A stretch of DNA of 40,972 bases, taken from assembly GCA_004144345.1 (NCBI GenBank), contig SEEL01000033.1, positions 1 to 40,972 on the forward strand. The letters are read 5' to 3'. The stretch comes from Hyphomicrobiales bacterium (lineage in GTDB: Bacteria; Pseudomonadota; Alphaproteobacteria; Rhizobiales; Devosiaceae). The notes under the pieces are model-generated. The model ran no database searches. It was not told the origin of the DNA and was given only the letters and a program-made list of their open reading frames with translations. Of the stretch, positions 6,463 to 27,956 are shown in pieces; the stretch's first letter is position 1; every line of letters begins with the position of its first letter. A program made the translations under genes and the position numbers.

Positions 6463-6552
6463 ATGATCAAGACCTTTTCGCTCTCCATCCTGTTCTTCCT
6501 CACGCTCGGCCTGATGTTCGCGGCCTATGCGTCGGTCCCCCCGGGCCTCTGA
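6463..6552 (+). CDS. 29-residue hydrophobic micro-protein (copy 2)
   Basis: ATG to TGA encodes 29 residues beginning MIKTFSLSILFFLTLGL and ending AAYASVPPGL. It aligns without gaps to the product at 4997: M1, K3, T4, S6-S8, L10, F11, L13, L15-L17, A20-A23 and P26 are identical, many with different third-codon bases. Predicted as one membrane-spanning helix or an uncleaved signal-like peptide. No clear ribosome-binding site. It follows the glycosyltransferase by 107 bases and precedes purQ by 137, so it could belong to either transcript. Function unknown; the pairing with the glycosyltransferase is the only clue. Confidence 0.6.
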   Translation: MIKTFSLSILFFLTLGLMFAAYASVPPGL

Positions 6553-6689
6553 CCTCAAAAGTCCTCCCGATCGCCGTCGCGTGAGCGCGCCCCGTCCTTT
6601 GGATGGGGACGTGCCAATGCGTCGCTTGCTTTTCCGGTCCAGACTCACGACAAGGTCGCCCATCCGACCCTTGCCGTGAGCCAAGTCCC

Positions 6690-7355
6690 GTGAAATCGGC
6701 TGTCATCGTCTTTCCCGGCCTCAACCGCGACCGCGACATGATCGCCGCGCTGACCACGGTCGGCGGCACGCCGCCCGCCGTGGTCTGGCACAAGGACACC
6801 GACATCCCGGATGTCGATCTCATCGTCATCCCGGGCGGCTTCTCCTATGGCGACTACCTCCGCGCCGGCGCCATCGCCGCCCGCTCGCCGATCATGTCCG
6901 CCATTCGCGGCAAGGCAGCGCGCGGTGTCCATGTGCTGGGCGTCTGCAACGGCTTCCAGATCCTCACCGAGGCGGGCCTGCTGCCGGGCGTGCTGATGCG
7001 CAACGCCTCGCTGCGTTTCGTCTGCCGCGAAGTGACGCTCGAAGTCACCAATGCCGACACCCGCTTCACCGCGGGCTACAAGGCCGGCCAGCACATCCAG
7101 ACGCCCGTCGCCCACCATGACGGCAATTATTTCGCCGATGCCGCGACGCTCAAAGCCGTCGAGGACAATGGCCAGGTCGCCTTCCGCTATGCCAACGGCA
7201 CCAATCCAAACGGCTCGGTCAACGACATCGCCGGCGTGTTCAACCGCGACAAGAACGTGCTCGGCCTGATGCCGCACCCGGAAAACCTGATCGAATCCGC
7301 CCATGGCGGCCTCGACGGCAGGGCCCTCTTCGCCAATCTGCTTCAGGTCGCCTGA
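6690..7355 (+). CDS. purQ: FGAM synthetase glutaminase subunit PurQ
   Basis: PurQ is the class I glutamine amidotransferase subunit of FGAM synthetase and passes ammonia to PurL. The protein is 221 residues. The nucleophile Cys86 is in LGVCNGFQ, and the triad is completed by His196 and Glu198 in [21 protein letters not shown] is the glycine-rich oxyanion region. The start is GTG at 6690: the open frame runs 29 codons further upstream, but that part is unlike PurQ and family members begin KSAVIVFPG. It overlaps the end of the convergent methyltransferase gene by 13 bases. It is separated from purS by 4.2 kb. Confidence 0.95.
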
Positions 7356-8158
7356 CGGCCAAATCCCTGCGCGCGCCAGGCCTCGTAGACCATCAGCCCC
7401 GTCGCAATGCCGAGGTTGAGGCTCTCCGCCCGTCCCATCATCGGGATGCGCACCAGCTCATCGCACTGGTCTTCGACCGCGTCCGGCAGGCCTGACTGCT
7501 CATTGCCCATCAGGATGCAGCTCCGCTCGCCATAGGTCGCTTCATGATGCGGGTGATCGCCCCGCATCGAGGCCGCGACGATCCGCACTTTGCCGGCCCC
7601 GCACCAGTCGCGGAACGCCGCGAACGGCACCGATGCCAGGCGCATCGCGAACAGCGAGCCCATGGTGGCGCGCACCGCGTCCACCGAGAAGGGATCGCAG
7701 GTGCTGCCGATCAGGATCACGCCATCGCATCCGGCCGCATCGGCCGTGCGGATGATCGTCCCCAGATTGCCGGGGTCGCGCACTTCATAGAGCGCCACAT
7801 AGCGGCGCTTCCCCGTCACCGGCAGATCCCGCAGCGGCGTCAGCCGCTGGTGGAAGGCCGCGACGATGCCCTGCGGATTGTCCTTGCCTGAAATCGCCGC
7901 CAGCACCTTATCGGCGGCCGTCAGAACCCGGGCGCCGGCGCCGCGCATCCGCTCCAGCAGGTCGCGCGTCCGCGGCCGGTCCGCCGCCGCGACATCGGCA
8001 AAGACATAGGCCGGCTTCCAGCCATTGCCGAGCGCCTCCTCGGCAAAATGCTCGCCCTCGGCGAGGAACAGCCCGGTCTCCTGCCGTTCCTTCTTGCGGT
8101 CCAGCGCCTTCAGCAGCTTTACCGTGTCATTGCTGGTCGATGAGATGTGCTCGAACAT
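7343..8158 (-). CDS. SpoU/TrmH-family RNA 2'-O-methyltransferase
   Basis: A 271-residue SPOUT-fold methyltransferase using S-adenosylmethionine on rRNA or tRNA ribose. The N-terminal substrate-binding part (about 1-110) begins [19 protein letters not shown]. The catalytic half has the three SpoU motifs: [32 protein letters not shown], and [19 protein letters not shown]. The exact target nucleotide cannot be told from sequence; RlmB- and TsnR-like roles are possible. It is antisense to the purine genes and overlaps the purQ end by 13 bases. Confidence 0.88.
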
Positions 8159-8267
8159 CAGGCACGTCTAGGGCGACAACGCCCAAACCGCAATCGCTGC
8201 CGCCTTCCTTGCGTCGTCCTTCACCAGAGGGCAAAGGTGCACCCATTCGATTCAGCCACGGCCCCTC

Positions 8268-8942
8268 ATGTCTATCCGCCTGCCCTATGCCCTGCTCGCC
8301 ATCCTCATTGGCGTCGTCGGCCTCGCCCTCAATTTCCACGGCATCGCCGGTACCATGGTCGCCTCGGCGACTAACCCGGAGCCGCGCAATTTCCCAAGCT
8401 TCCTCGTCTATTACTGGAGCTTCTTGACCAATCTCAGCAACACCGCGCTGCTGCTGATCTACCTTGCCGAGCTGACGCAGGCCCGCTGGCTGGGCTGGTT
8501 CCGCGATCCGGTCACCAAGGCCGGCATGGCGGGCATCATGATGCTGGTGATGTTCTTCTACCACTTCATGCTGGCGGCCAATCTGCCGCCCGTGCCGCCC
8601 ACCATCGAGATCTCCAACATCCTGCTGCACTACCTGACGCCGCTGCTTTATCTCGGCTGGTGGCTGTTCTTTTCGCCGCGCGGGGCCCTGCGTTTCCCCG
8701 ATCTGCCGATGATGCTGCTGCCGGGTCTGCTCTACGTCGCCTATATCGAGCTGCGGGGCCTCTGGGTGAACGACTACCCCTACACCATCCTCGATCCGGG
8801 CTTCGCCCCGCCCGGCGGCACGCCTGTCGGCTGGCTCACGGTCGGCATCAGCATCGGTGTGCTGGTGGTGCTCGTCGCAATCTTCGACTTGCTCCTCATC
8901 GCCATTGACGGTCTTATCGCGAGGCGGCGGCAGTCAGCCTGA
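8268..8942 (+). CDS. Pr6Pr-like six-helix membrane protein (copy 1)
   Basis: A 224-residue inner-membrane protein with about six hydrophobic helices, starting MSIRLPYALLAILIGVVGL. It resembles the Pr6Pr / FAR-17a-AIG1-like family: aromatic clusters such as FYHFMLA, a YLTPLLYLGWWLFF segment with a likely membrane histidine (LLHYLTP), and VNDYPYTILDP in the last loop. Function is unestablished; distant eukaryotic relatives hydrolyse lipid esters. The neighbouring gene ten bases downstream is a clear paralogue with the same landmarks, so this is a tandem duplication and probable operon. Confidence 0.75.
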   Translation: MSIRLPYALLAILIGVVGLALNFHGIAGTMVASATNPEPRNFPSFLVYYWSFLTNLSNTALLLIYLAELTQARWLGWFRDPVTKAGMAGIMMLVMFFYHFMLAANLPPVPPTIEISNILLHYLTPLLYLGWWLFFSPRGALRFPDLPMMLLPGLLYVAYIELRGLWVNDYPYTILDPGFAPPGGTPVGWLTVGISIGVLVVLVAIFDLLLIAIDGLIARRRQSA

Positions 8943-22370: not shown

Positions 22371-23702
22371 ATGACCGCCATCACGAGCCCCCGAGGAGTC
22401 CGCGCCGTGTTCCGCTCCTTCTTCCCCAATCCCGTCAATTTCTTCACCTCGGCGATAGCCTGGACCGCGGTCGTCATGACCCTGTGGTTCCTCGGCGGCT
22501 CTACCATCGAGCCCTATCTGAGCCTGGGGCCCTGGCTCGGCATCACGCCGACCGAGGCCAATCCGGCGCCGTTCTTCAGCCCGGACAAGGTCTGGCTGTA
22601 CCAATATGTGATCATGTCGGGATACCTCTTCTGTATCCCGTGGTTCTTCCTCGGCGACAACAAGCGCTGGTACTGGTGGAGCGTCGTGGGCACGGTGACG
22701 ATCATCGAGATCGTCTATTTCAACGTGCAGGTCGGCGCCTGGCTGAACGACTGGTACGGCGACTTCTACAACATGATCCAGACGTCGCTGCAGACGCCGA
22801 ACACCTTCACCTTCGACCAATATATCGAAAAGGTCTGGACGGTGGCGGCCGTGCTGGCGGTCAACATCCTCGTCCTCGTGTTCAACGCCTTCCTCAACGC
22901 CCACTATCTCTTCCGTTGGCGCCGGGCGATGAACTTCTTCTATATGGCCAACTGGCCAAAAGTCCGCCACATCGAAGGCGCCTCGCAGCGCGTGCAGGAA
23001 GACACCCAGAGCTTCTCGTCGATCGTCGAGAGCCTTGGCCTGACCATCGTCGAATCCGTCATGACGCTGATCGTGTTCATCCCGATCCTGTGGTCGCTGT
23101 CCGACGCCATTTCGGTCCTGCCGTGGATCGGCGCCGTGCCCGGCAGCCTCGTCTGGATCGCGCTCGGTTCGGCGGTGTTCGGCACCCTGCTGTTCGCCGT
23201 CGCCGGTATCCGCCTGCCCGGCCTGCAATTCGCCAATCAGCGGGTCGAGGCGGCCTATCGCAAGGAACTGGTGTTCGGCGAAGATCATCCCGAACGGTCG
23301 CAGCCGATCACCATCCGCGAACTGTTCCGCAACGTGCAGCGGAACTACTTCCGCATCTACTTCCACTACACCTACTTCAACGTCTTCCGGTACACGTACC
23401 TGCAGGCATCGACCTTCTTCCCCTACATCGCGCTCGGCCCGTCGATCGTCACCGGTGCCATCACCTTCGGTATCTTCCAGCAGATCCTCAACGCTTTCGG
23501 CGAGGTCTCTAGCTCGTTCCGCTTCCTGATGAACTCGTGGACGACGATCATCAACCTGATCTCGATCTACCAGCGTCTGCGCGGCTTCGAACGGCAGATC
23601 CCGAAGGAAACGCTGGTCTTTGCCAACGATTATGACGACCCGCGCTATCTCGCCACCGCGACGGTGCCCGCCGCGGCCACGCCCGCGGTCGTGCCGGAAT
23701 AG
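22371..23702 (+). CDS. sbmA: SbmA/BacA family peptide transporter
   Basis: An inner-membrane, proton-driven importer of antimicrobial peptides; BacA in rhizobia is needed for survival in legume cells and for very-long-chain fatty acid lipid A. The 443-residue protein has about seven or eight membrane segments, starting at [20 protein letters not shown]. Signature stretches: [34 protein letters not shown] near residue 205, and [27 protein letters not shown] near residue 380. The last about 20 residues are an Ala/Pro/Val tail. Whether it behaves as SbmA or as a BacA-like paralogue cannot be decided here. Confidence 0.9.
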
Positions 23703-23724
23703 TGCTGGCACCCAATACATCCTG

Positions 23725-23752
23725 GGCAGGAGCGGTCCGCCGCCCCTGCCCG
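23725..23752 (+). terminator. Hairpin downstream of sbmA
   Basis: GGGCAGG (23725-23731) and CCTGCCC (23746-23752) pair, with an inner GCGG/CCGC extension. It lies 22 bases after the sbmA stop and 16 bases before the next gene. No U-run, so attenuation rather than full termination is possible. Confidence 0.45.
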
Positions 23753-23768
23753 GTCCCGACGCTCAATC

Positions 23769-24692
23769 ATGCCTGAGCCGGCGCGCCCGCTTCGCATCGC
23801 CGTCGTCGCGCATGTCTTTTTCCCGGCGCTGTGGCCCGAACTGGCCGCCTACATCGCCAACATCCCGGCGCCCTTCACGCTCTTCGTGACGCTGCCCGAA
23901 GGCAGCACTGCCGAACCTCTCATCCGGCGGACCCACGCGGATGCCGAAATCCGCTACGTGCCCAATGTCGGGCGCGACGTGGCGCCGTTCCTGTCGCTCT
24001 ATCCGGCGCTCGCGGCCTTCGATGTGGTGTGCAAGCTCCACACCAAGCGTGACGGCCTGCTGCACCGCGAGTGGCGGCTGGAGTGCCTCAAGGGCGTGTT
24101 GGAGAGCCGCGGCCTCGTCACCGCGCTGCTCGCCGCCTTCGCCGCCCATGACGATCTGCTGCTGGCCGGTGCCGCCGACCTCTATCTCGATGGCCCGCGG
24201 CATGTGGCAGGCAATCTGCCCATGCTGCACCGGCTGCAGGATCCCCTGCCCACTGCCTACGGTTTTTTTGCCGGCACCATGTTCTGGGCGCGCCCCGCCC
24301 TCTTCGCCGATCTCGCGCCGCGCTTTCCGGCGGCCGCCTTCTCAGTGCATCGCGACAAGGATGGGCATCTCGAACATGCCCTTGAGCGCCTGTTTGGCGC
24401 GCGCGCCGCCACCCTCGACGGCATAGTTGCCCTGACCCGTCCCGCCCCTGCCGGACGGACGGTCGACATCGTCCCCGCAGGCTCCGGCACGGCGCGGCGG
24501 TTCAGCCATATCTACCATTTCAAGCTGCCACTCCGTCATGCGCCCACCGCGCCGCTCACCCATCTGCCGCTCGGGGCGCTGCACGAGGCAATCGGCTTCA
24601 TCCAGCGGCTCCAGAAGATTTCCGCCAACCGGCGGGCCGCAAGGCGCGCCGCGCTCGACGCATCCACACCGGCGGGCGATACTTCGGCTTAG
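23769..24692 (+). CDS. RgpF-like (rhamnan synthesis F family) protein
   Basis: A 307-residue cytosolic protein of the RgpF family, seen in polysaccharide and O-antigen gene clusters. It starts with a strand-rich LRIAVVAHVFFPALWPELAAYI. The family motifs PNVGRDVAPFLSLYP, VCKLHTKRD and GFFAGTMFWARPALF are all present. Members are proposed to add rhamnose or to act with glycosyltransferases; the exact reaction is not well settled. No other polysaccharide genes are adjacent except the acyl-activation operon nearby. The stop overlaps that of the convergent 36-residue ORF. Confidence 0.75.
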   Translation: MPEPARPLRIAVVAHVFFPALWPELAAYIANIPAPFTLFVTLPEGSTAEPLIRRTHADAEIRYVPNVGRDVAPFLSLYPALAAFDVVCKLHTKRDGLLHREWRLECLKGVLESRGLVTALLAAFAAHDDLLLAGAADLYLDGPRHVAGNLPMLHRLQDPLPTAYGFFAGTMFWARPALFADLAPRFPAAAFSVHRDKDGHLEHALERLFGARAATLDGIVALTRPAPAGRTVDIVPAGSGTARRFSHIYHFKLPLRHAPTAPLTHLPLGALHEAIGFIQRLQKISANRRAARRAALDASTPAGDTSA

Positions 24693-24799
24693 TGGCGGCG
24701 GGACTGCGCCAGTGCGAACAGCACCAGCACCATGCCGGCCGCCGGCACGGTCAGCAGCACCGCAAGATCCATCGCATCGATCCAGTGCTGGTACCTCAT
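24689..24799 (-). CDS. 36-residue membrane micro-protein (third of three)
   Basis: Encodes 36 residues beginning MRYQHWIDAMDLAVLLT and ending LVLFALAQSRRH: a short polar start, one hydrophobic helix (about 12-31), and a basic tail that would stay in the cytosol. Third codon bases are mostly G or C, as in real genes here. Its ATG overlaps the preceding stop as ATGA. Its stop (TAA) overlaps the stop of the convergent RgpF-like gene. Family unknown. It is not in a longer frame, and it makes sense only as part of the three-gene unit 24689-25079. Confidence 0.55.
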   Translation of the reverse strand: MRYQHWIDAMDLAVLLTVPAAGMVLVLFALAQSRRH

Positions 24800-24897
24800 C
24801 TGGTGCCCGTCCCCAGCATCCAGATGGCGGCAACGAAGGCGCCGATCAGCAACAGCACCATCAGCGCTTCGAGCACGCGGTAGAGGACAGTGGACAT
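24796..24897 (-). CDS. 33-residue membrane micro-protein (second of three)
   Basis: Encodes 33 residues beginning MSTVLYRVLEALMVLLLIG and ending AIWMLGTGTR. One hydrophobic helix covers about residues 11-28. The ATG overlaps the previous stop as TGATG, and the stop overlaps the next ATG as ATGA, so translation should run through all three ORFs. GC-rich third positions support coding. Family unknown; small subunits of membrane complexes look like this, but no such complex is encoded nearby. Confidence 0.55.
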   Translation of the reverse strand: MSTVLYRVLEALMVLLLIGAFVAAIWMLGTGTR

Positions 24898-25079
24898 CAC
24901 GCCGCCTTGCGGGCGCGCACTGCCGCCGTCCGGCGCTTCACCGGCTTGCGGGCCGCAACCAGATGCGCCTGATCGGCGGCGATCTCGGCCACGATGGCGA
25001 GCATGCCGTGGTCGATGATGTCGAAAGCGGCCCCAACGGCGGGCACTGACTTGATGCGTTTACGGGAAGTCTGCTGCAT
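24897..25079 (-). CDS. 60-residue basic protein (first of three)
   Basis: A 60-residue soluble protein beginning MQQTSRKRIKSVPAVG, with a mildly hydrophobic helical centre (IIDHGMLAIVAEIAADQAHLVAA) and a strongly basic end, KPVKRRTAAVRARKAA. The basic ends suggest nucleic-acid or acidic-lipid contact, but no fold is recognised. GGGGTGA five bases before the ATG may serve as ribosome-binding site. It leads the micro-operon. The 126-base gap upstream contains ATCGG-TAT-CCGAT, a small inverted repeat. Confidence 0.6.
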   Translation of the reverse strand: MQQTSRKRIKSVPAVGAAFDIIDHGMLAIVAEIAADQAHLVAARKPVKRRTAAVRARKAA

Positions 25080-25205
25080 GGCGTCACCCCAGACGACTAT
25101 CTGAGCCTGACGCTAGTATCGGTATCCGATCTTCTGCAACGACTTACCACTTCTTAAGTAAAGCGGCGCGGTTAACTGCATCGCTAGCTGAATGGCAAAC
25201 AAATC

Positions 25206-26198
25206 TCAGCGCTCATACATCCACTCGGCGAAGAACCGCCCCAGCCGCCGCCGCTTCGCCAGCGGATAGAGCGCCGCGTGACCGACCGGTTTCCTGCCGT
25301 CACGGATCGGCACCAACTCGCCGCCAAGCAGCATCCTGTTGCGTTCGGCATTGGTGACGTCGGCGGCGACATCGGCGCCATAGGCATGCGCCAGCCGTGT
25401 TGCCGCCCCCGCCCCCTGCCGCAGCGCGACGAGAACATCGGCAAAGGAGACCCCGCCCAGTGGCAACTGGCGGCTGTCGTCGTGGCCACCCGCCCCCACC
25501 GTCATGATCGCCGTCGCGCCGAGCGCCAGCCCTGTCGCCAGTGCCGCAAGACCACCGGCGCTGGTGCCAAGGCAGTACAATTGGCGATAGCCGTGCTGGC
25601 GCCGGTAATCGCGGAGCAGGTCGATCGTCTCCGCAAGGCTCGACGTGCTGCCGCCAACCCCCGCCGCAAAGGCACGTTGCGCCGGATCGCGCAGTATCAG
25701 CACATCGGTCGCCCGCGCCTCGAGGTGCTGCAGGTAGACCGGCACCGGCAGCGTCGGCCGGTGCGTGCTGGCACAGAACACGATGGTCAGCGCCTTCTCC
25801 GCCGCTGCGCCCGGCCCGCCATACAACCCGATCGAGCGCGCGATGCGCCGCCGGACGAAGGGCTCAGGACGGCACTTGCCAGCCAGCGACAGCCAGTGGC
25901 GGAGGTTCAGCGCCCATTCCTCCGTTCCCGCCGCGATGGCCTCGGTGCTCAGCGGCTGCAGTCGCCGCTCGATCCCGTTTAACTGCCGTGCCAGCCCGTT
26001 GGGCACCACCATCTGCATCTCGGCCAGCATCGCCGGCAGCGTTTGCCGTGCCGGCAGGAACCGCTCCAGCACGCGATAGGCTTCGATTGCCGTCATGCGG
26101 TTCTCGAGCGCGATACGCAGCCGGTTGCGCTGGTTCTCGGTCGTGAGGCGGGGCAGCTGGCGCGTATAGAGGGCGGTAAGATCAACCGCCCCGGACAC
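25206..26198 (-). CDS. Alpha/beta-hydrolase-like protein of the ACP operon
   Basis: A 330-residue protein. The N-terminal part (about 1-110) is helical and polar. The C-terminal part looks like an alpha/beta hydrolase: IVFCASTHRPTLPVPVYL as first strand, LYCLGTSAGGLAALATGLAL as nucleophile elbow with Ser213, and a later VTNAERNRM. It could be an acyltransferase or thioesterase working on the carrier protein upstream; this is inference. GTG at 26198 was chosen because earlier codons in this frame overlap the carrier protein and have no homology-like pattern. It overlaps that gene by 17 bases. Confidence 0.65.
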   Translation of the reverse strand: MSGAVDLTALYTRQLPRLTTENQRNRLRIALENRMTAIEAYRVLERFLPARQTLPAMLAEMQMVVPNGLARQLNGIERRLQPLSTEAIAAGTEEWALNLRHWLSLAGKCRPEPFVRRRIARSIGLYGGPGAAAEKALTIVFCASTHRPTLPVPVYLQHLEARATDVLILRDPAQRAFAAGVGGSTSSLAETIDLLRDYRRQHGYRQLYCLGTSAGGLAALATGLALGATAIMTVGAGGHDDSRQLPLGGVSFADVLVALRQGAGAATRLAHAYGADVAADVTNAERNRMLLGGELVPIRDGRKPVGHAALYPLAKRRRLGRFFAEWMYER

Positions 26199-26442
26199 GG
26201 TCCACCAGCTGGCCGAGGGACGCGATGGACACCAGGTCACCGGGCACGATCGAGACGCCCGTGCTGGTCTCGATGGCGATGCACAATTCCATGCTGGCAA
26301 GGCTGTCGATATCGAGGTCACGCACGGCAATGTCGCGCGCCCCCGCCACGAAGGCCGCCTCGACATCGCTGTCGCGGAAATGCGGCACGGCGGCATAGCG
26401 CAGCGCCTCGGCAATGAGGCGTCGAATATCCTCGTCAGTCAT
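26182..26442 (-). CDS. Acyl carrier protein
   Basis: An 86-residue, acidic, four-helix carrier protein. The phosphopantetheine-attachment site is Ser47 in DLDIDSLASMELCIAIE. It also has the later STGVSIVPGDLVSIASLGQLVD. It is longer than housekeeping AcpP and has a distinctive N-terminus, so it is probably a dedicated carrier for the upstream ligase rather than the fatty-acid one. Its ATG overlaps the ligase stop as ATGA, with GGGGAG seven bases before it. A phosphopantetheinyl transferase is not in the window. Confidence 0.9.
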   Translation of the reverse strand: MTDEDIRRLIAEALRYAAVPHFRDSDVEAAFVAGARDIAVRDLDIDSLASMELCIAIETSTGVSIVPGDLVSIASLGQLVDRVRGG

Positions 26443-27842
26443 CTAGTACTCCCCAAAATATGAAATTTCGCCGCCAGCTCGCGGCGCACAATCTTGCCCT
26501 GGCTGTTACGCGGCAGGGCCTCGACAATCAGGATGCGGCGCGGCGCCCGCAGTGCCAGTCGCTCGCGGGCAAACGCCTGCAGCTCCTGCGCCAGCGCCGT
26601 GCGGCCCGGCTTCAATTCCACCGCCGCCACCGGGATCTGCCCATGCACCGGCGAGGGCAGCCCAAGCGCCGCCGCCGCACCGATCTCAGGATGGCTTTCC
26701 AGTACCCGCTCGATCTCGGATGGAAAGATATTGATGCCGTTGAGATTGATCATGTCGTCGGCCCGCCCAAGTACGCGCAGCGTGCCATCCGCCGCCAGCG
26801 CACCGATATCGCCCGGCCAGAACCAGCCCTCGCGAAACCGCGCAGCACTCTGTTCCGGCGCATCCAGATAGAAGGCGGCAATCCCCTCACCCCGCAGCCG
26901 GATCTGCCCGCTTTCGCCATGCGGCAACGCCCACCCGTCCGCATCGACGATCTCAAGCTCAATCCCGGCAACAACTCGCCCGACGCTGCCCTCCCCGGCA
27001 TGCGCCGCCGGCCCGGCGACGGCGATTGTCCCCACCTCCGTCGCCCCGTAGCGCACGACCAGTTTTGGCGCGGCCGTCGCCAGCAACCGCTGACGCAAAT
27101 CGTGCGGCACGGACGAGCCGCTGACCCGCACCTCACAATCGAACGGCTGGCCCTGCAAATCCGCCGCCTGCATCAGCGCCAGATCGAGCGCCGTCACCCC
27201 AAGCCTCCGGCAATAGTCGGCGAGATCCACTTGCCCCGCTGGCAGGAACACATTGGTCCCGCCCATCGCCGCGCAATAGAGCCGGTGGCGCTTCGAATTG
27301 TTGTGCTCGATCGATGCCGGCCGCAGCAGCCGCCCGCCGGCATATTCCGGATGGCGCGCCGCCTGCACGAGCAGAGCATCGCCGCTGAGCGGCACGATGT
27401 TCATCGTGCCCGTCGTCCCCGAGGTCCGCAGCAGCACGCCGCCAGCGTCGCTCGCCGGCGCCGCCACGTCGCCCGCCGGCAACGGCCAGCTCAGCGCCCC
27501 CGGCCCCACCGCCGCCGGTTCGCCCTGCGGCCCCAGCAGCACATGGCTCACCCCGGCCCGCGCCGCAATCGCCTCGCGCTCGGCCGCCGTATCATGGGTC
27601 GCCAGCGCGACCTGCCACGCCCCCAGCCGCAACAGGGCAAGGCTCGCGACAAAATGCTCGATCTCGTCCGGGATGGTGATGCCGACATGCATGCCCGCAC
27701 GCAGCCCGGCCGCCTGCAGCGCCGCCGCCTCGCGCTCGACGCGTGCCAGCAGGCCCGCCCAGTCCAGCGCCGGGCCGTCCTTTACGATGGCATCGCCACG
27801 CCCCGTCATCCCGTGACGGCGCAGCTGCCCCCAAAACCCCAT
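26439..27842 (-). CDS. AMP-dependent acyl/aryl ligase (ANL family)
   Basis: A 467-residue adenylate-forming enzyme that should activate a carboxylic acid with ATP and load it on the carrier protein downstream. Motifs: RTSGTTGTMNIVPLS (139-153; the usual P-x-K ending is absent), RYGATEVG (264-271), GWFWPGDIG with Asp345, GRADDMINLNGINIFPSEIE (359-378), and the catalytic Lys450 in NSQGKIVRREL. Shorter than most acyl-CoA ligases. Start at 27842 follows GGGGGAG; an upstream ATG at 27890 is less likely. Substrate unknown. It leads a ligase-ACP-hydrolase operon. Confidence 0.85.
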   Translation of the reverse strand: MGFWGQLRRHGMTGRGDAIVKDGPALDWAGLLARVEREAAALQAAGLRAGMHVGITIPDEIEHFVASLALLRLGAWQVALATHDTAAEREAIAARAGVSHVLLGPQGEPAAVGPGALSWPLPAGDVAAPASDAGGVLLRTSGTTGTMNIVPLSGDALLVQAARHPEYAGGRLLRPASIEHNNSKRHRLYCAAMGGTNVFLPAGQVDLADYCRRLGVTALDLALMQAADLQGQPFDCEVRVSGSSVPHDLRQRLLATAAPKLVVRYGATEVGTIAVAGPAAHAGEGSVGRVVAGIELEIVDADGWALPHGESGQIRLRGEGIAAFYLDAPEQSAARFREGWFWPGDIGALAADGTLRVLGRADDMINLNGINIFPSEIERVLESHPEIGAAAALGLPSPVHGQIPVAAVELKPGRTALAQELQAFARERLALRAPRRILIVEALPRNSQGKIVRRELAAKFHILGSTR

Positions 27843-27893
27843 AGCGCTCCCCCAAGCGCGCAAACCCTTGCTGCACCTAGCAAGGCACACGGC

Positions 27894-27926
27894 AAAACGA
27901 AAGGGCCGCCCGGTGGGGCGGCCCTT
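27894..27926 (-). terminator. Rho-independent terminator of rpsD
   Basis: On the minus strand AAGGGCCGCCC pairs with GGGCGGCCCTT (27901-27926), an 11-bp stem with a four-base loop, followed by TCGTTTT. It lies 30 bases after the rpsD stop. This is the clearest intrinsic terminator in the window. Confidence 0.88.
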
Positions 27927-27956
27927 CGCAATTCCGTGAGGACAAATCCCTCGCGC

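Follow-up and report, generated by a model that had tools for sequence, protein, structure and literature searches.

The window, a 40,972-nucleotide stretch of contig SEEL01000033.1 from a bacterium of the Hyphomicrobiales (family Devosiaceae), carries three very small open reading frames (ORFs) in succession on its minus strand, flanked upstream by a ligase–acyl carrier protein–hydrolase unit (25206–27809) on the same strand and downstream by a convergent RgpF-like gene. The trio and its neighbors are arranged as follows.

23769–24692, plus strand: RgpF-like gene, convergent with the trio, 307 aa (PF05045, E 2.2e-23, residues 7–210)
24689–24799, minus strand: ORF3, ATG start, 36 aa, one predicted membrane helix, Arg-Arg-His at the C terminus
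24796–24897, minus strand: ORF2, ATG start, 33 aa, one predicted membrane helix
24897–25079, minus strand: ORF1, ATG start, 60 aa, basic (pI 11.6)
25080–25205, minus strand: leader of 126 nt that separates ORF1 from the hydrolase-like gene; its G+C (about 0.49–0.55) is the lowest in 23600–26600
25081–25113, minus strand: predicted leader hairpin, with the likely Shine-Dalgarno sequence of ORF1 in its 3' arm
25206–26198, minus strand: hydrolase-like gene, its protein with a GTSAGG motif recognized by eye
26182–26442, minus strand: acyl carrier protein gene (PF00550)
26439–27809, minus strand: AMP-ligase gene (PF00501)

ORF1 and ORF2 meet at a TGATG (24895–24899) with 1 nt in common, and ORF2 and ORF3 at an ATGA (24796–24799) with 4 nt in common, so that both junctions show the 4-nt or 1-nt overlap of a stop with the next start by which termination-reinitiation-coupled genes are recognized. 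A GTG at 24900, one codon upstream, is an alternative start for ORF2 and would give 34 residues and a GTGA overlap. At 60, 33, and 36 residues, and in a gap between two larger genes (hydrolase-like and RgpF-like), the trio falls within the size range of 15 to 70 codons and the setting that define small intergenic ORFs. The original prediction had described minus-strand ORFs of these lengths joined by TGATG and then ATGA, and its coordinates and junctions were reproduced exactly. It had also placed the last stop over that of the convergent RgpF-like gene, as is the case: the ORF3 stop TAA (24691–24689) and the RgpF-like stop TAG (24690–24692) have two bases in common. A fourth minus-strand ORF (24536–24667, 43 aa) in the frame of ORF3 was left out of the unit, as it scored only 0.22 bits/codon and lies opposite the coding strand of the RgpF-like gene. 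In that gene, the final 82 codons (24444–24692, plus strand), which lie past the Pfam domain and have this 43-aa ORF antisense to them, show weak coding bias.

To score coding potential, a codon model was built from 802 called genes of the source genome, taken from 1,025,618 of its 4,095,956 bases, with the ORFs of the window's island excluded. ORF1 scored 0.44 bits/codon, which places it at the 16th percentile of real-gene windows of equal length; 1.3% of stop-free windows in a wrong frame scored as high or higher. The corresponding values were 0.45 bits/codon, 20th percentile, and 2.5% for ORF2 and 0.48 bits/codon, 23rd percentile, and 2.0% for ORF3. G+C by codon position was 0.73/0.51/0.83 in ORF1, 0.59/0.44/0.88 in ORF2, and 0.74/0.40/0.89 in ORF3, against a mean of 0.67/0.46/0.85 in a sample of the source genome with 179 called genes, which bears out the earlier statement that the third positions are GC-rich like those of real genes. 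When all six frames were scored in a sliding window, the top minus-strand frame switched at the borders of the ORFs. In a single window (24764–24860), centered on the ORF2/ORF3 junction, a plus-strand frame won, as expected because two short frames meet there, and it came near a tie in the windows beginning at 24740 and 24884. Codon signal was absent from the first 12 codons of ORF1 (−0.18) and the last 9 codons of ORF2, and little was present in the first 12 codons of ORF3 (0.12). As a codon-based gene caller also favored a GTG at 25046, 11 codons into ORF1, the start of ORF1 is less certain than its body.

Chains of three ORFs of 25 to 80 aa joined by 4-nt or 1-nt overlaps were common by geometry, with 92 in 1.03 Mb of the source genome (15 of them ATG-only) and 683 and 676 in two first-order random replicates (79 and 78 ATG-only). 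The original prediction that such exact coupling is unusual by chance thus fails for geometry alone. It stands once codon usage is added: when more than 0.25 bits/codon was required in every member, the trio was the single chain retained from the source genome sample (1/92, and 1/15 ATG-only), against 0 of 1,359 random chains (0/157 ATG-only). A smaller, earlier count was concordant (1/28 versus none in five random replicates). The best-scoring version of the chain has a shortened ORF1, and full-length ORF1 still yields the 0.44 bits/codon given above. Because geometry and codon usage are so rarely found together, the three frames very probably encode proteins.

The predicted products are one basic peptide and two hydrophobic ones, in agreement with the earlier description. 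ORF1 carries a charge of about +8, and ORF2 and ORF3 each contain one strongly hydrophobic stretch, with best 19-residue Kyte-Doolittle means of 2.55 and 2.57, consistent with a single membrane helix in each. An AlphaFold model of ORF1 from its single sequence (mean pLDDT 75.7, pTM 0.39) showed a long helix (residues 13–43) and a short C-terminal helix (51–59). The model had no fold match in the PDB at E ≤ 10, and a PDB sequence search with ORF1 returned six sequences (best E 0.27). A 19-nt direct repeat (89%) raised the idea that ORF2 and ORF3 are duplicates of one another; it was rejected, as 1,206 of 2,000 membrane-aware shuffles aligned equally well or better.

No Pfam or NCBIfam model reached its cut-off for any of the three proteins, and neither PHROGs (E up to 0.5) nor PADLOC (E up to 0.1) returned a family, so the claim that the products match no known family holds for these libraries. 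The nearest Pfam model to ORF2 was PF16935 (Hol_Tox; E 0.023, 15.0 bits against a gathering cut-off of 23.3, 18 residues aligned), and the nearest family to ORF1 was DUF7556 (E 0.075, sub-threshold). Protein searches with ORF1 gave no match at E ≤ 0.001 in 60 other genomes or in the 18 other congeneric genomes, where the best hit (E 0.002, locus L022) was rejected as a homolog since it runs antisense to a 504-aa ORF, which by eye we take to be a histidyl-tRNA synthetase. ORF2 and ORF3 had no match at E ≤ 0.05 in 135 other genomes of the family. Among 396 other genomes of the order, sampled evenly from a larger group, weak matches numbered two for ORF1, three for ORF2, and three for ORF3, and none was accepted as a homolog: one runs antisense to a 247-aa ORF (L218), two lie in frame within ORFs of 412 and 183 aa (L220 and L222), and the others coincide, according to the match tables, with open frames of 408 to 611 aa (L219, L221, L284–L286). 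Because the first pass of the genome search can miss very short, distant relatives, absence here means absence of recognizable ones. A protein search with ORF1 alone found no match in plasmids or phages and none that was confirmed in viral contigs, and the DNA of 23703–25205 had no match in plasmids. A DNA search with the complete region of 571 bases yielded just short matches of 23 to 81 bases in 17 of 60 other genomes (best E 2.9e-6), which were taken as chance in GC-rich, repetitive codons.

An association with RgpF genes elsewhere was also rejected. At 74 of 79 RgpF-like loci, scanned over bases 6501–8500 of each as far as available, with five short or off-center loci excluded, no convergent three-ORF chain with two hydrophobic members was present. 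Among the tblastn matches listed for the trio against the collected loci, the best for ORF1 were L022 (E 2.6e-4) and L023 (E 0.001), both of which had entered the set through the ORF1 search itself; the former is the antisense match described above, and the latter lies in a 233-aa open frame. A literature search returned no paper on small open reading frames in Devosia, and the RgpF and SbmA matches that it listed were unrelated.

The trio sits between sbmA and rpsD, two genes present in all 19 congeneric genomes, the source included, and found on one contig in 17 of the 18 others and on two contigs in the remaining one (G012). It was not found in the 17 genomes with the spot on a single contig. 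By tblastn, the sbmA–rpsD regions gave four chance-level matches to the trio ORFs (E 0.14–0.96) in three genomes; at E < 1e-4, none of the 18 other congeneric genomes had an RgpF-like gene there. Among the 19, the RgpF-like gene and the trio occupy this gap in the source genome only. The trio is absent from most relatives searched, as expected of lineage-restricted small ORFs. The ligase–ACP–hydrolase unit was detected at the same place in four of the 18 (G001, G002, G014, and G017), and the ligase alone in a fifth (G013). Eight gaps were read for other ORFs, and the remainder were covered by tblastn of the window's genes. In G002, the unit is separated from sbmA by an outer-membrane barrel gene (PF13505). 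The gap of G005, whose sbmA is the most similar (83%), contains a HigB-like toxin gene (PF05015, E 7e-14) together with another gene that has helix-turn-helix (HTH) matches below threshold. Because its content differs among congeneric genomes, the sbmA–rpsD gap is a place of accessory gene turnover in the genus. At some loci, the gap is a short spacer only (content compared over 23703–27956 of the window and loci L199, L204, and L206–L209).

The hydrolase-like protein of the upstream unit matched no Pfam or NCBIfam model; of three relatives scanned, one had a sub-threshold match to Abhydrolase_6, one a sub-threshold match to DUF3701, and one none, and its AlphaFold model was unusable (mean pLDDT 37). 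Together with the AMP-ligase and the acyl carrier protein, it possibly forms an uncharacterized acyl-transfer pathway.

At the DNA level, nothing in the 18 other congeneric genomes matched the 126-nt leader. Its low G+C makes it the likely position of a promoter, and a consensus scan of 24500–25400 recognized no sigma-70-like promoter and no terminator. By eye, GGGGTGA at 25084–25090 is presumably the Shine-Dalgarno sequence of ORF1, its GGGG lying 7 nt before the ATG. The segment 25078–25118, which spans the predicted hairpin, folded at −17.9 kcal/mol (z −3.05, 0/200 shuffles equally stable), with the hairpin chosen post hoc from the fold. The whole leader was unremarkable (z −1.4, 21/200 shuffles), and the leader with the first 20 nt of ORF1 gave z −2.41 (5/200). 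Predicted openness of the ORF1 ribosome site was 0.18, with lower values in 6.5% of 494 called genes; the ribosome sites of ORF2 and ORF3 were ordinary in openness, as was the fold energy of the wider ORF1 start region. From the leader through ORF3, the RNA folded better than shuffles (z −3.34, 0/100 equally stable), and ORF2–ORF3 gave z −2.66 (3/200); ORF1 alone (z −0.49) and ORF1–ORF3 (z −1.79, 13/200) had weak or no excess. An Rfam scan of the window matched no family; a non-coding RNA is possible, but the fold excess was not counted as evidence of one.

Taken together, these observations are best explained by a real, lineage-restricted accessory micro-operon with coupled translation, which would encode a basic, helical peptide together with two peptides that each cross the membrane once, and in which the ribosome site of ORF1 perhaps lies in a hairpin; we assign this reading a probability of about 0.5. 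The frames, their coding signal, the hydrophobic segments, the variable location, and the lack of the trio in the relatives searched are observed; how it would be transcribed, coupled, gated, placed, and held together is inferred. On a single mRNA, ribosomes would enter at ORF1, where a binding site within the predicted leader hairpin might allow control, and would then pass by termination-reinitiation into ORF2 (at TGATG) and ORF3 (at ATGA), so that the three products would be made together. The ORF2 and ORF3 products would most likely be single helices in the inner membrane, and the basic helical ORF1 peptide would most likely lie on the cytoplasmic side and bind either the membrane surface or the ORF2 and ORF3 products. 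As the trio follows an acyl-activating unit and faces a gene of surface-polysaccharide type, a role at the envelope is plausible. A bolder version, in which the basic peptide, under hairpin gating, would assemble with the two coupled single-helix peptides into one small complex, a self-contained three-part membrane microprotein machine new in sequence and spread as cargo of the sbmA–rpsD spot, is doubtful.

The architecture of the trio is ordinary and its kind already known, while the proteins are new. KdpF and CydX are small accessory subunits of membrane complexes, of about 30 to 40 aa with one membrane helix; ORF2 and ORF3 resemble them in size and in the single helix, but differ in that no large partner subunit gene was recognized beside the trio and no sequence match to them was found. 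Huber et al. (2023, PMC10666635) report that, among unidirectional gene pairs, overlaps of 4 nt and 1 nt far outnumber other spacings, and that short overlaps are enriched among subunits of heteromeric complexes; a review states that translational coupling requires short overlaps (PMC12548453). That enrichment is the one observation that bears on the original prediction's suggestion of small subunits of a membrane complex or envelope stress peptides, which is speculative. The 1-nt TGATG and 4-nt ATGA of the trio have these standard spacings, but here three very small genes stand in a row, and their coupling is putative, as read from sequence. A preprint on enterobacterial intergenic small ORFs (PMC11188072) describes frames of 15 to 70 codons that are mainly hydrophobic and potentially transmembrane, mostly lineage-restricted, and mostly of unknown function. 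The trio is likewise small, partly hydrophobic, and lineage-restricted, but has a GC-rich host, forms an overlapping unit of three, and follows the codon usage of that host.

Several other readings bear on the same evidence. The trio may have been captured behind the ligase–ACP–hydrolase operon and form its co-transcribed tail, with products that aid acyl transfer at the membrane, as it lies on the same strand 126 nt downstream of the unit with no terminator between them in the consensus scan. However, all four other congeneric genomes with a complete unit are without the trio, and therefore the unit does not need it, and the low-G+C leader suggests a separate promoter; we regard this reading as unlikely, although it is compatible with the micro-operon reading and its odds overlap with those given above. 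In one of these four genomes (G014), a GC-rich inverted repeat was seen by eye between the unit and sbmA, which says little on where the unit ends because its longer run of T lies on the strand of sbmA. Recent open frames in inserted DNA, perhaps translated but with no selected function, would account for the presence of the trio in the source genome alone among those searched and for the abundance of geometric chains (92 in 1.03 Mb), and the preprint cited above reports that small intergenic ORFs of enterobacteria turn over at a high rate and emerge in a lineage-specific way (PMC11188072). That such proto-genes or chance frames explain the trio is nonetheless improbable in our estimate, as the codon usage of all three ORFs fits that of the source genome's genes, unlike the other chains (1/92), and is reached by 1.3 to 2.5% of wrong-frame windows.

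Short single-helix peptides also bring to mind a unit resembling toxin-antitoxin systems, in which ORF2 and/or ORF3 would damage the membrane and be restrained by ORF1 or the leader. The weak match of ORF2, a short single-helix peptide, to Hol_Tox, a family of putative holin-like toxins, points in this direction, as does the HigB-like toxin gene beside an HTH-like gene at the same spot in G005. That match is nevertheless below the cut-off, the NCBIfam, PHROGs, and PADLOC searches gave nothing at the thresholds used, and the window holds no Rfam family; by these tests, the trio does not belong to Hol_Tox or to a known defense or phage family, and a toxin-antitoxin role appears quite unlikely. 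Finally, three successive frames on one strand, beside an RgpF-like neighbor with a weakly coding tail, could be the remains of one longer gene split by frameshifts. This is very improbable: the frame switches coincide with the start/stop overlaps, no Pfam model reached its cut-off when the three frames were extended to longer stop-free stretches (best Hol_Tox, E 0.19), and no longer relative was found in the searches.

If the frames are translated, they would represent three protein families that none of the searched libraries contains. Three such overlapping genes in a GC-rich host may escape standard gene callers because each is so short. The trio would also offer a small natural system for testing how coupled translation passes through very short frames, and its surroundings mark the sbmA–rpsD gap as a site of accessory-gene turnover in the genus. 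The RgpF-like domain at this locus stands alone in a protein of 307 aa; in Phyllobacterium sp. 2063 (L055, 5404–8016), such a domain lies within an 870-aa ORF, the later part of which looks glycosyltransferase-like by eye.
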